From positions 1 to 64,000 of the forward strand of contig NZ_FCOX02000016.1 of assembly GCF_900044055.2 (NCBI RefSeq): a stretch of DNA of 64,000 nucleotides, read 5' to 3'. Below are positions 1,313 to 61,038 of the stretch, piece by piece (position 1 is the stretch's first letter; every line of letters begins with the position of its first letter). Under the pieces are notes generated by a model. The model saw nothing but the letters and a program-made list of their open reading frames with translations, was not told the origin of the DNA and did no database searches. This DNA comes from Caballeronia calidae. GTDB taxonomy: Bacteria > Pseudomonadota > Gammaproteobacteria > Burkholderiales > Burkholderiaceae. The translations under genes were made by a program, and so were the position numbers.

Positions 1313-1881
1313 TTTATCAGCAGTTCACTTACATTAACCTTATCAGCCAGCCTAGCTCCTCAACCCCCTCGCTGCTGGGAGTCTCCGAACAGTCCCCTCA
1401 CGGGAACGGTCCGCCCGATACGTCCGGGGGCTACATTGTCCGAGGAGCTTCACACCCCACCGTTGCCAGTGACGCATGTCCTCGTAGGCTACTGCTGGTC
1501 GTACAGCAGGTTCACTGCCCTCCCCCAAACTGCAGGTCGGGCCGAACAATGACATCCCGAGCTTTCGCTCGTATCGTGTAGCGGGTTCACCACACTAGGC
1601 GGCGAACGCTGCAAACAACACTCCGCTTTGTCAGCGGAAGTGAAGCCGCTGACTGGGCGGAATCTGGTGATAACCAGACTAATGCAACACGTTCCACGGC
1701 CAAGCTGCACCGCGGTTCGTTCCATCCAGGAAGTGGCCGAAACCACCCCTACTACAAGGGCGCGGCCCACAAGGGGGCCGCCTGCGGAGGGTAGAGCGAC
1801 CAAAACCGAAGTCTCAGGCGATGTCCCTCTAGTCGATGCCTCTTAACGCGAGGCCCACGGACACGAGCGTGCGTGTCGCAC

Positions 1882-45846: not shown

Positions 45847-45922
45847 TCCCCGATAGCTCAGTCGGTAGAGCGCCGGACTGTTAATCCGTAGGTCCCTGGT
45901 TCGAGCCCAGGTCGGGGAGCCA
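45847..45922 (+). tRNA. tRNA-Asn (GTT), copy 1
   Basis: 76 nt with encoded CCA. Acceptor arms TCCCCGA and TCGGGGA pair, the anticodon loop is CTGTTAA (anticodon GTT) and the T-arm has GGTTCGAGCCC. First of three identical copies. Confidence 0.98.
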
Positions 45923-45945
45923 AAAACTCCAGCAAGCGGTTTCAA

Positions 45946-45974
45946 AGAAACCCAGTCCATCGGCTGGGTTTTTT
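45946..45974 (+). terminator. Terminator in spacer after tRNA copy 1
   Basis: AACCCAG and CTGGGTT arms followed by TTTT. It is repeated exactly after copy 2 (46106-46134). No promoter is visible before copies 2 and 3, so some read-through is needed. Confidence 0.75.
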
Positions 45975-46006
45975 ATCTCAGTTGCAGATGTAGATGTTTC
46001 AGTTGT

Positions 46007-46082
46007 TCCCCGATAGCTCAGTCGGTAGAGCGCCGGACTGTTAATCCGTAGGTCCCTGGTTCGAGCCCAGGTCGGGGAGCCA
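46007..46082 (+). tRNA. tRNA-Asn (GTT), copy 2
   Basis: Identical to copy 1, including encoded CCA; preceded by the 84-bp spacer with a terminator-like hairpin. Confidence 0.98.
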
Positions 46083-46105
46083 AAAACTCCAGCAAGCGGT
46101 TTCAA

Positions 46106-46134
46106 AGAAACCCAGTCCATCGGCTGGGTTTTTT
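46106..46134 (+). terminator. Terminator in spacer after tRNA copy 2
   Basis: Exact copy of the hairpin and T-run at 45946-45974, part of the second 160-bp unit. Confidence 0.75.
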
Positions 46135-46166
46135 ATCTCAGTTGCAGATGTAGATGTTTCAGTTGT

Positions 46167-46242
46167 TCCCCGATAGCTCAGTCGGTAGAGCGCCGGACTG
46201 TTAATCCGTAGGTCCCTGGTTCGAGCCCAGGTCGGGGAGCCA
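46167..46242 (+). tRNA. tRNA-Asn (GTT), copy 3
   Basis: Identical to copies 1 and 2, with encoded CCA; followed by a different, stronger terminator. Confidence 0.98.
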
Positions 46243-57562: not shown

Positions 57563-59011
57563 ATGCAACCGCCAGCCACGCGCGCCGCCCGCGCGCATCA
57601 AGGACCGCCGAGCCTCTCGCGTCACGCCGTCGACACGGCGCGCCTCGCCGCGCCGCTCGCCATCGCGCAGCTTTCGCAGATGGCGATGGGCGTCACCGAC
57701 ACCATCCTGCTCGGCTCGCTCGGCCCCGACGCGCTCGCCGCGGGCGGCCTCGGCGCGAACCTCTTCTTCGTCGTGGTGACGCTGCTTCAAGGCGTGCTGA
57801 CGTCGGTGTCCGTGTCGGTCGCGCATGCGCGCGGCGCGAACGCCGATGAGCGTGTCCCGAGCATCTACTGGACGGGGTTCGTGCTGTCCTTGCTGCTCGC
57901 CGTGCCCGCCTTCGTGCTGCTGAGCTACGCCGAACCGATCCTGCTCGCGTTTCACGAGCCGGCGACGCTCGCTAAAAACGTCGGCGAATATTGCGCGGTG
58001 CTGCGCTGGGGCACGCCCGGCAGTCTCATCGGCGTCGGGATGATGCGCGCGTTCCTGCCCGCGATCGGCGCGGCGCGGCGGCTCTTGTGGATCTCGATCG
58101 GCGGCGTGTTCGTCAACGGCTTTCTCAACTACGGGCTGATCCACGGCGCCTACGGCCTGCCGCGCGAAGGCTTTCTCGGCTCGGCGGCGGCGACCACGAT
58201 CACCGTGTGGGGCATCGCGATCGCGCTCGTCGCGGTGCTGCATCTGCGGCCGCGCTACAGGCATTTCGTCGTGCGCGCGCGCCCGCGCCTGCCGCTGATG
58301 GGCGAGCTCTTCGGCATCGGCTGGCCGGTCGCGATCACCTACGGCGTCGAATCGACGCTCTTTCTCGCCACCGGCATGATGGTCGGCCTCCTCGGCGAAG
58401 CGCCGCTCGCCGCGCATCAGATCGCGCTCAACGTCGCGTCGGTCGCATTCATGGTGCCGCTCGCGATCGGCCAGGCGGCGAACGTGCGCGTCGGCTACTG
58501 GGTCGGCGCGGGCGTGCCCGTCGCGGCGCGCCATGCGGGCTTCGTCGCGCTGGCGCTGGGCGTCGGCTTCATGATGTGCTCGGGGCTCGTGCTGATCACC
58601 GTGCCGCACGCGATCGTCGGCCTGTATCTGAATCTCGACGATCCCGCCAACGCGCATACCGTCGCGCTCGCGGCGTCGCTGCTCGGCGTCGCGGCGGTGT
58701 TCCAGATCGTCGACGGCATGCAGACGGTCGGCTCCGGCTGCCTGCGCGGCCTGAAGGACACGCGCATCCCGATGCTCGCCGCCGCGTTCGGCTATTGGGG
58801 CGTCGGCTTTCCGACGGGCTACGTGCTCGCGTTCCATTTCGAGCTCGGCGCAAAGGGCCTGTGGTGGGGTCTCGCCGCCGGACTCGCGAGCGTCGCCGTG
58901 CTGATGACATTGCGGTTTCATCGCATCAGCCGGAAGTTCATCGAAACGGGCGTCGCGCCCCGACCCGACGACGCCAAGGCCGCGAGCGCCGCGCCGCACG
59001 GCCACGTCTGA
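57563..59011 (+). CDS. MATE-family efflux transporter
   Basis: A 482-residue multidrug and toxin extrusion protein with 12 membrane helices in two halves (each starting near LAAPLAIAQLSQMAMGVTDT and LFGIGWPVAITYGVESTLFL). It is NorM-like and would export cationic compounds using a Na+ or H+ gradient. No SD-like sequence precedes ATG 57563; a terminator-like hairpin lies there instead, suggesting control in the leader. Confidence 0.93.
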   Translation: MQPPATRAARAHQGPPSLSRHAVDTARLAAPLAIAQLSQMAMGVTDTILLGSLGPDALAAGGLGANLFFVVVTLLQGVLTSVSVSVAHARGANADERVPSIYWTGFVLSLLLAVPAFVLLSYAEPILLAFHEPATLAKNVGEYCAVLRWGTPGSLIGVGMMRAFLPAIGAARRLLWISIGGVFVNGFLNYGLIHGAYGLPREGFLGSAAATTITVWGIAIALVAVLHLRPRYRHFVVRARPRLPLMGELFGIGWPVAITYGVESTLFLATGMMVGLLGEAPLAAHQIALNVASVAFMVPLAIGQAANVRVGYWVGAGVPVAARHAGFVALALGVGFMMCSGLVLITVPHAIVGLYLNLDDPANAHTVALAASLLGVAAVFQIVDGMQTVGSGCLRGLKDTRIPMLAAAFGYWGVGFPTGYVLAFHFELGAKGLWWGLAAGLASVAVLMTLRFHRISRKFIETGVAPRPDDAKAASAAPHGHV

Positions 59012-59067
59012 TGCGCGCGTGATATGCACCCGACGCCCGCGCCGATTTGCATAGCACGAATGCTTGG

Positions 59068-59096
59068 TTGGTCCGCGCGGCGCGCATTGCTACGAT
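59068..59096 (+). promoter_or_regulatory. Promoter of the candidate small RNA
   Basis: TTGGTC (59068-59073), exactly 17 bp, then TACGAT (59091-59096). It matches the consensus at four of six and five of six bases, and lies about 8 bp before the first paired base of the RNA. Confidence 0.65.
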
Positions 59097-59101
59097 GAAC
59101 T

Positions 59102-59167
59102 CGTCTCCTCCTTGAGACATCTGTGACAGGGGTTCTCAGCCCGCTTCAGCCAGCGGGCTTTTTTTCG
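59102..59167 (+). ncRNA. Candidate small RNA with anti-Shine-Dalgarno loop
   Basis: A free-standing transcription unit of about 65 nt in the 326-bp gap between the MATE and phospholipase genes. A sigma-70-like promoter precedes it. The 5' end folds into GTCTC / GAGAC (59103-59107 with 59114-59118), with the loop CTCCTT (59108-59113), the exact complement of AAGGAG. About 19 unpaired bases follow, then a Rho-independent terminator. This plan suits an RNA that binds ribosome-binding sites and blocks translation. There is no reading frame. Anti-SD small RNAs are known in Burkholderia; I cannot say if this is one of them. Confidence 0.68.
59138..59167 (+). terminator. Rho-independent terminator of the small RNA
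   Basis: AGCCCGCT and AGCGGGCT pair around loop TCAGCC, followed by seven T. It lies 127 bp past the MATE stop codon, so it might also end that transcript. Confidence 0.92.
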
Positions 59168-59229
59168 TCCCTGCTTTTCGTCCGTTCGCTCCGTCACTGT
59201 CCCCTCCTCCGGTCGTTCTTCGATTCCCC

Positions 59230-59235
59230 TAGAAT
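59230..59235 (+). promoter_or_regulatory. Candidate -10 box of the phospholipase D gene
   Basis: TAGAAT, 103 bp before the GTG start, the same hexamer as upstream of earP and moaA. No clear -35. Confidence 0.35.
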
Positions 59236-59337
59236 ATTTTCGAGACGTACGACGCGAGAACGCTTCTTGCTTCGCATCGGATCATCCGCCGAACGTGCCA
59301 GACATGCGAGTCGGAACAACTAGAACGAGGAATCGAA

Positions 59338-61038
59338 GTGTCGGAAAGCCGGGGATGCTTGCAAGCCGCATGGCGTGACGGAAACCGCGAGGACATCGAT
59401 CAGCGCGTCGCGCCGAAACGAAGATTCAGCGCGGCCGTGCGCGATGTGGCCGTCGTCCTGACGATGACGGTGCTCGTCGCCGCCTGCGAGACGCGGCCGC
59501 CCGCGACGGAATTCGATCGCACGACGAGCCACGCGCTGCCCGCGAGCGAAGCCACGCCGCTCTCGACCGCGCTCGCGCCGCTCGAAAGGCAGCATCCGGA
59601 TCAATCCGCCGTGCGCCTGCTGCCGACCGGCACCGATGCGCTCCAGGCCCGCATCGCCCTCGCGCGCGCGGCGACGAAGACGCTCGACATGCAGTACTAC
59701 ATCGCCGAAGAGGACAACACCGGCAAGCTGCTGCTCGGCGCGGCGCTCTATGCGGCGGATCGCGGCGTGCGCGTGCGGATGCTCGTCGACGACCTGAACT
59801 TCAAGGACATCGACCAGATCATGGCGGCGCTCAACACCCACGACAAGATCGAGATCCGCGTGTTCAATCCGTACGGCAGCGCGCGGAGCAGCTTCTCCGA
59901 GCGCACGCAGAACTTCTTCACGAATCTCAGCCACTTCACGCGCCGCATGCACAACAAGGCGATGATCGCGGACAACCAGATCGCGATCATCGGCGGGCGC
60001 AATCTCGGCGACGAATACTTCAGCGCGAGCCCGACGCTGCAGTTCCGCGATCTCGACGCGTTTGCCGCCGGCCCCGTCACGCAGAAGATTTCCGCGAGCT
60101 TCGACGACTATTGGAACAGCGCGCTCGCCTATCCGCTGCGCGCGCTGAACAAGCAGCAGTTCGATCCGTCCGAGCTCGACAAGACCCGCGACGATCTGCG
60201 CGCGCATTGGCGCCAGCAGGCCGATCCGCTGAACGCGAAGCCGCTCAACGCGACGCCGCTCGCGCAGCAGATCGCGCGCGATGAAATGGGCCTCGTGTGG
60301 GCGCCGACGGAGTTCCAGGTCGATGCGCCGTCGAAGATCGAGCATCCGAGCGACGCCTACAAAAGCCCGCCGATGCAACGCCTCGTCAGTCTGCTGAAGG
60401 ATGCGCAGAGCGAGTTCCTGATCCTGTCGCCGTACTTCGTGCCGCACGACGCGGGCGTGAAGGCGCTCGGGGACTTGACGAAGCGCGGCGTGCGCGTCGC
60501 GGTGCTGACGAACTCGCTCGCCGCCACCGACGCCGTCGCGGTGCAGGCGGGCTACGCGCCGTATCGCATTCCGCTGTTGCAGCGCGGCGTCGAACTGTAC
60601 GAATTCAAGCCGGTTCAGATCGAAGGCGAAGGCAGTCCGCGCGCGGGTCTGTTCGGCTCGCGATCGCGCGCGAGTCTTCATGCGAAGGCCTATGTGATCG
60701 ATCGGAGTATCCTCGTGATCGGATCCATGAATCTCGATCCTCGCTCGGCGAAACTGAACACCGAGCTCGCGCTCGTGATCCACAGCAAGCCGATCGCCGA
60801 CGAAGCCGCGAAACTCTTCGCCAACGGCATCGCGCCGAAAGTGAGCTGGCAGGTGCAGCTGGCGAGCGCGGCGGTCACCGCGGAACTGCGGCACACGGGC
60901 TCGCCGCAGTCGGGCCTCGTCTGGACCACCGAGGAAAACGGCAGCATCGTCTCCTACAATTTCGATCCCGAGGCCGGTTTTTATCGAAACGTGATGACGG
61001 GCCTCTTCATGCTTCTGCCCGTCGACAAGCAGCTCTGA
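59338..61038 (+). CDS. Phospholipase D-family lipoprotein (ClsC-like)
   Basis: A 566-residue PLD-superfamily protein with two HKD motifs: HNKAMIADNQIAIIGGRNLG (near 205) and HAKAYVIDRSILVIGSMNLD (near 445). It resembles ClsC, which makes cardiolipin from phosphatidylethanolamine and phosphatidylglycerol. The N-terminus has a long charged start, then a hydrophobic stretch ending LVAAC, a lipobox with Cys near residue 50, so it is probably a lipoprotein with an unusually long n-region. The start is a GTG with a GAGG site; an internal start nearer the lipobox is possible but no ATG suits. fumC follows by 27 bp. Confidence 0.87.
   Translation: MSESRGCLQAAWRDGNREDIDQRVAPKRRFSAAVRDVAVVLTMTVLVAACETRPPATEFDRTTSHALPASEATPLSTALAPLERQHPDQSAVRLLPTGTDALQARIALARAATKTLDMQYYIAEEDNTGKLLLGAALYAADRGVRVRMLVDDLNFKDIDQIMAALNTHDKIEIRVFNPYGSARSSFSERTQNFFTNLSHFTRRMHNKAMIADNQIAIIGGRNLGDEYFSASPTLQFRDLDAFAAGPVTQKISASFDDYWNSALAYPLRALNKQQFDPSELDKTRDDLRAHWRQQADPLNAKPLNATPLAQQIARDEMGLVWAPTEFQVDAPSKIEHPSDAYKSPPMQRLVSLLKDAQSEFLILSPYFVPHDAGVKALGDLTKRGVRVAVLTNSLAATDAVAVQAGYAPYRIPLLQRGVELYEFKPVQIEGEGSPRAGLFGSRSRASLHAKAYVIDRSILVIGSMNLDPRSAKLNTELALVIHSKPIADEAAKLFANGIAPKVSWQVQLASAAVTAELRHTGSPQSGLVWTTEENGSIVSYNFDPEAGFYRNVMTGLFMLLPVDKQL

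Follow-up and report, generated by a model that had tools for sequence, protein, structure and literature searches.

The 64,000-nt stretch of Caballeronia calidae DNA analyzed here (the window) carries a small RNA gene that is almost certainly real (Table 1). Judged by its sequence, the RNA is a divergent sister subfamily of the RF02278 "toxic"/double-hairpin RNAs and not a full member. Its existence and its kinship with RF02278 are well supported; the mechanism that we propose is read from the sequence and its relatives. We consider it probable that the RNA is a trans-acting repressor of many targets, and its 5' seed GUCUCCU, rather than a hairpin loop, is the most likely working part.

Table 1. 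Positions of the RNA gene, its signals, its predicted folds and its neighbors in the window
Feature	Position	Strand	Remarks
Small RNA	59102..59166	+	about 64 nt; RF02278 match, 34.6 bits, E 1.9e-5
Upstream element TTGGTTGG	59064..59071	+	second half opens the -35-like TTGGTC
-35-like hexamer TTGGTC	59068-59073	+	
-10-like box TACGAT	59091-59096	+	TANNAT in relatives
5' seed GUCUCCU	59103..59109	+	complement of AGGAGAC
Fold A (hairpin of the preliminary description)	59103..59118	+	GUCUC 59103-59107 / GAGAC 59114-59118; loop CUCCUU 59108-59113
Fold B (alternative long stem)	59109..59132	+	UCCUUG 59109-59114 / CAGGGG 59127-59132; place of the RF02278 first stem
Intrinsic terminator (predicted)	59138..59165	+	stem AGCCCGCT/AGCGGGCT 59138-59159, then T run
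MATE exporter gene	57563..59011	+	upstream; Pfam MatE 2.7e-49
PLD-family gene	59338..61038	+	downstream; Pfam PLDc_2 3e-40

Gene structure, promoter and distribution

The 5' start of the RNA was placed by the spacing from the -10-like box together with the RF02278 match, and the 3' end by the terminator. A preliminary description, made from the letters alone, had proposed a free-standing small RNA with a promoter (TTGGTC/TACGAT), a stem GTCTC/GAGAC closing exactly on the loop CTCCTT, a strong terminator and no reading frame, flanked by a MATE exporter and a phospholipase gene. These features are in place: the hexamers are present and lie 17 nt apart, the stem closes on the loop as described, terminator prediction found the stem and T run, no ORF of at least 80 aa overlaps 59030-59319, and Pfam identifies both neighbors. 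The stretch folds more stably than its shuffled versions (z = -2.62), and the terminator stem with its T run is seen in relatives too. Elsewhere in the window, we observed a group II intron match (RF02012, 127.6 bits, 1356-1510, minus strand) and three tRNA genes with a 160-base spacing and equal scores (45847-46239, plus strand).

The promoter is weak by consensus. A sigma-70 scan at 9/12 or better returned no match at the small RNA, and a manual count gives TTGGTC/TACGAT 7/12. Its support therefore comes from conservation, which we assessed over 81 aligned loci (20 from Caballeronia, g1; 31 from g116; 28 from g124; 2 from g117; we refer to g116 as Burkholderia-like and to g124 as Paraburkholderia-like, both inferred names). 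The columns of TTGGTTGG are 80-100% identical across these loci and the TA and AT columns of the -10 box 100% identical. The exact TTGGTTGG is found in 60 of the 81 (15/20 in g1, 29/31 in g116, 14/28 in g124 and 2/2 in g117), and in other genera it recurs at another place in the genome. AGCANNNATGCTTGGTTGG (59053-59071), upstream of the -35-like box, is conserved among some family members and could be bound by a regulator.

Within Caballeronia, the RNA is widespread. A 141-base query matched 23/41 genomes, all within the genus, and a pattern scan of named genomes returned 38 stretches, all from Caballeronia or Burkholderia. A covariance model given the terminator structure alone (R1) matched 52 of 58 Caballeronia genomes at 57.7 bits or more (59102-59166 in the window), the next matches scoring at most 45.4 bits and including the RF02278 copies of the host genome on contigs C73 and C43. 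Five of the six genomes without the RNA are small (2.4-3.9 Mb, one of them 60% complete); the sixth, G015, has 6.2 Mb. The gene neighborhood is also kept at most of the loci inspected. Among the first 22 matched loci (L001-L022), the MATE gene adjoins the match in all and the PLD gene in all except L013; at L023, a 35-base match, neither adjoins. At 14 further Caballeronia loci, MATE is in reach in 13 and PLD in all 14.

In a 200-genome sample of the order, R1 found nothing above 38.5 bits outside Caballeronia. A 398-genome sample of the family yielded matches in g116 at 49-50 bits, two of which share the upstream TTGGTTGG and have different neighbors. Since RF02278 copies and true homologues mix at this score, we built a second model (R2) from 26 sequences with the promoter included. 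R2 reached at least 58.9 bits in 59/61 g116 genomes and, for some of the g124 genomes, about 60-79 bits. At 64 of the 70 loci fetched from g116, g124 and g117, the RNA adjoins an FMN-reductase-like gene whose coordinates place it in divergent orientation. MATE is found at five of them (three in g124, two in g117), where the RNAs have shortened 5' parts, and the remaining locus lies on a short contig with neither gene. At the MATE-side loci L220-L222, L237 and L238, which come from two further genera, the 5' part is strongly changed or shortened (e.g., CGACUCCUCUGACAGGGU) and the promoter motif is kept.

These loci bear on two readings in which the element would belong to a neighboring gene. 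Terminator prediction gave nothing between the MATE stop codon and the element, so transcripts reading through from MATE would end at the element's terminator too, as expected if the stretch were no more than the 3' end (UTR and terminator) of the MATE mRNA. However, we regard this as very improbable: the -10 columns and TTGGTTGG are conserved as described above, and the 64 loci beside the divergent FMN-reductase-like gene are not downstream of MATE, so the RNA is not merely a MATE 3' UTR. It is likewise highly unlikely that the element attenuates transcription of the downstream PLD gene or serves as its leader. Although the PLD gene starts on the same strand about 170 bases past the terminator, and there is a weak Trp_leader match (25.2 bits), that match is below the cut-off of 41 and consists mostly of the terminator and a GGUUGGU stretch, and neither MATE nor PLD is in reach at the second locus, that of the FMN-reductase-like gene. 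Because a similar promoter recurs beside other neighbors in other genera, an independent promoter is the simplest reading of the sequences, in line with the free-standing RNA first described.

Kinship with RF02278 and other described RNAs

Rfam at gathering scores misses the window RNA, and the preliminary description was silent on kin. A described family is nevertheless related to it: the closest known is RF02278 (Betaproteobacteria toxic small RNA, with ncS03, ncS05, ncS27 and ncS62 of Burkholderia cenocepacia, and bdhR1), against which the window RNA scores 34.6 bits, below the curated cut-off of 50. A scan of the host genome with this model returned four copies at 64.5-76.8 bits, the window RNA as fifth, and the next match at 26.8 bits. 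Of 17 homologous loci, 12 scored 35.7-42.5 bits, none reaching 50, and the other five had no match listed at E <= 0.01. Forms of the L255 type resemble both the window RNA family and RF02278, and the g116 form CGUCUCCUCCAUGAUGUCUCUACUGACAUGGGUU reads as an intermediate toward the RF02278 form UGUCUCCUCCAUGUCUCCUCCUGAUAUGGAUU.

The two share a length of about 60-70 nt, a 5' end GUCUCC(UCC), an AGCCCGC-type terminator and the occurrence of several copies per genome. They may also share a first stem pairing UCC with GG(A/G): its pairs are kept in 58/59 parsed RNAs, but the window copy is predicted to form it with a probability of just 0.45. The CU-rich 5' end of RF02278, UGUCUCCUCC, is present as CGUCUCCUCC in the window and as TGTCTCCTCC in L031-L034. 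The window RNA differs in its promoter (with TTGGTTGG upstream), its location between MATE and PLD, an extra competing hairpin and, in Caballeronia, a single CU stretch. The second CU stretch that RF02278 carries in the loop of its first stem is absent in the window, where this loop reads AGACAUCUGUGA; most g124 homologues have a CUCCUU stretch there.

Likeness to other RNAs was also considered. The anti-hemB RNA (RF02837, ncS04) shares a CU-rich UCUCCUCC stretch and a terminator with the window RNA, but the match (22.7 bits) stays below the cut-off of 49.5 and the middle hairpin of the model is not kept. Identities with Trp_leader, anti-hemB, MH_s10, suhB and sR39 were all rejected, as every match falls below its cut-off. 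Among published RNAs, ncS16 was rejected as a counterpart because it sits in the ompA 3' UTR, and ncS62 was rejected as the counterpart of the g116 homologue on gene orientation and length; ncS36 was considered for that place. Literature searches, which covered articles without their supplements, found no published name for the window RNA, and an earlier listing is possible.

Functional data exist for relatives. Overexpression of ncS27 slows growth, and its predicted targets lie in transport and metabolism (PMC5688073; review PMC10987360). A further likeness, by description and not by sequence, is to S17/S17S of Bordetella pertussis, for which a single-stranded 5' end has been described (PMC11722255) that pairs at ribosome-binding sites, together with many transporter-related targets and a predicted factor-independent terminator. 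In the same study, 70 of the 92 genes that rise without S17 have matches in the region of the ribosome-binding site, 32 transporter-related genes or operons are named, and direct repression is demonstrated for BP2158. S17S is released from a 190-nt precursor (PMC11722255), RNase E being the processing enzyme of S17-type RNAs, whereas the promoter of the window RNA would lie directly upstream.

Competing folds and the 5' seed

Two folds compete for the 5' half of the RNA. In the window copy, neither clearly prevails by energy (core probability 0.26 for fold A and 0.45 for fold B). Fold A dominates in L065 (0.81) and L014 (0.97), L019 and L189 prefer fold B, and L016 favors neither. We compared the folds in the 81 loci, hand-picked among those fetched, which hold 67 distinct RNAs, of which 59 could be parsed (five lacking CAxGGG and three an identifiable 5' half were left out). 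All six pairs of fold B are kept in 58/59, a count to be read with the 5'-half search pattern in mind, which partly forces pairs 1-3 and 6. Its pair 4 is U-G in 20 RNAs (those of Caballeronia), A-U in 38 and G-U in one, a compensatory change that probably stems from one or two events. The conserved CAGGGG, partner strand of this stem, lies in what had been described as a 19-nt unpaired stretch and would be paired in fold B.

The five pairs of fold A are complete in only 20/59 RNAs: 17/20 from Caballeronia, 3/15 from g116 and 0/24 from g124. The middle pair is C-C, C-U or C-A in 32/59, and over the 81 loci agreement with the window is 60-69% at the three final bases of GAGAC, the 3' arm. The hairpin first described thus exists as one of two competing folds; in relatives, its stem is intact across most of the genus and mostly broken outside, where the loop is altered as well. 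By sequence comparison, fold A is mainly a feature of Caballeronia.

The best conserved and target-matching element is instead the 5' end. Each column of GUCUCCU is at least 90% identical to the window over the 81 loci, whereas one base of the loop agrees with the window in just 10-19%. Most of this 5' end would be buried by the hairpin of fold A, and formation of fold B would free it. The letters CUCCUU occur in 16/20 Caballeronia loci, in 24/28 of g124 (there chiefly within a second CU stretch further downstream) and in 0/31 of g116; the loop is CUU in several Caballeronia RNAs and CUCCAU in most g116 forms.

These comparisons count against the hairpin as a display device for the CUCCUU loop, the working part that was first thought to pair with AAGGAG. 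We rate this model as unlikely. The intact hairpin in most Caballeronia RNAs, its dominance in the predicted ensembles of L065 and L014, and the keeping of CUCCUU somewhere in most g124 loci speak for it, as do a start preference of the loop hexamer and the rank of AAGGAGA before ATG (see below). Against it stand the varying loop, the broken stem in g116 and g124, and a poorer separation of MFS genes than by the 5' seed. Action by the 5' seed is most likely from the sequence patterns.

Ribosome-binding-site matches, predicted targets and proposed action

Across 1.264 Mb of host sequence, we counted 7-mers for association with an ATG 3-9 bases on (14,403 7-mers with at least 15 occurrences; base rate 0.105). 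Two 7-mers showed the strongest association: GGAGACA, the complement of UGUCUCC in the RF02278 copies, preceded ATG in 44/97 occurrences, and AGGAGAC, the complement of GUCUCCU in the window RNA, in 48/114 (rank 2 of 14,403). AAGGAGA ranked fifth (35/113) and CAAGGAG 43rd. The pattern AGGAGACN{2,9}ATG had 338 matches in the whole genome (some overlapping) and 14 when read backwards. A further reversed-text control was confounded by base composition and gave way to the rate per k-mer.

Additionally, predicted duplexes were compared between starts and internal sites of 859 genes, called crudely and blind to ribosome-binding sites. Full-length duplex energies showed no preference for starts, so seed segments were used instead. 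Nucleotides 1-13 of the RNA formed duplexes of -14 kcal/mol or lower at 47 starts and 6 internal sites. Nucleotides 1-9 did so at -12 or lower at 55 starts and 7 internal sites, with shuffled seeds giving a mean of 17 and a maximum of 26 at starts. Nucleotides 1-13 at -12 (107 starts, 28 internal sites) stayed within the range of shuffled seeds (mean 76.4, maximum 130). Nucleotides 14-26 and 24-36 showed no preference for starts in these genes. The loop hexamer alone preferred starts mildly (mean -3.49 vs. -2.38). Because this seed is common to the RF02278 copies of the host, the targets are not assignable to the window RNA alone.

The 47 best predicted targets are biased specifically toward MFS proteins. 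Pfam assigns MFS_1 to 10 and Sugar_tr to 4 of them, and MFS_1 to at most 1 of 110 random non-target genes, as it is absent among the 25 families listed there (all families with at least two members). Other transporter families do occur in these controls (LysE 2, BPD_transp_1 2, Peripla_BP_6 2). A home-made MFS profile gave 10/47 targets and 22/812 others (Fisher P = 2e-6); it was built from seven of its own ten target hits and also served for the seed ranking below, whereas the Pfam counts are independent. The MFS targets would be importers. Among the further predicted targets are two acyl-CoA dehydrogenases, a 3-hydroxyacyl-CoA dehydrogenase, a periplasmic binding protein and a CoA-ligase. 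By analogy, this picture of MFS and catabolic targets would fit the published relatives ncS27 and S17, and the window RNA shares with S17 a 5' end complementary to the ribosome-binding sites of many genes.

When 64 seeds of the form NNNCUCCUC were ranked by how well they separate MFS genes, the four NGU forms (GU before CUCC) took ranks 1-4 (AUC 0.68-0.70); the next seeds reached 0.66, the loop 0.63 and the 16S-tail seed 0.60. In its best 47, the loop found 8 MFS genes, the 5' seed 11.

We give very little weight to a reading in which the RNA imitates the 16S rRNA tail and, as a decoy, depresses translation globally. The window RNA does contain CCUCCUU, a sequence that it has in common with the 16S tail. 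However, the final UU is poorly kept (one column at 10-19%), AAGGAGG is not enriched before ATG in the host (8/58), the small RNA, unlike the 16S tail, matches AGGAGAC through to its AC end, and the predicted targets are biased. The earlier idea of a multi-target regulator with an anti-ribosome-binding-site element survives in part: the targets are probably many, but the element would be the 5' seed, not the loop.

We return to the trans-acting repressor of the RF02278 sister branch. The window RNA would be transcribed from its own promoter and end at the intrinsic terminator. In its active state, the UCCUUG/CAGGGG stem would be formed and the 5' end (C)GUCUCC single-stranded, so that the seed could pair with many mRNAs at their extended ribosome-binding site, AGGAGAC(A), and block translation, notably that of MFS transporters and catabolic enzymes. 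Hfq would probably be engaged at the U tail. In Caballeronia, the extra hairpin GUCUC/GAGAC could shut the seed, and the two folds may correspond to a closed and an open state.

More tentatively, AGGAGAC(A) could be an address on transporter and catabolic mRNAs that is read by five GUCUCC-seed RNAs, to which the window RNA might add a lock (GAGAC, a mimic of the target), a closed/open switch and a separately controlled promoter. We consider this extension possible, though doubtful.

The RNA adds a well-conserved branch, below the cut-off of Rfam, to a family known mainly for RNAs that slow growth. It also offers a testable rule, namely that genes with AGGAGAC as their ribosome-binding-site word, prominently MFS transporters, form a set marked for shared repression. 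If true, this rule would account for a CU-rich RNA that acts on many targets and yet affects ribosome-binding sites unequally.
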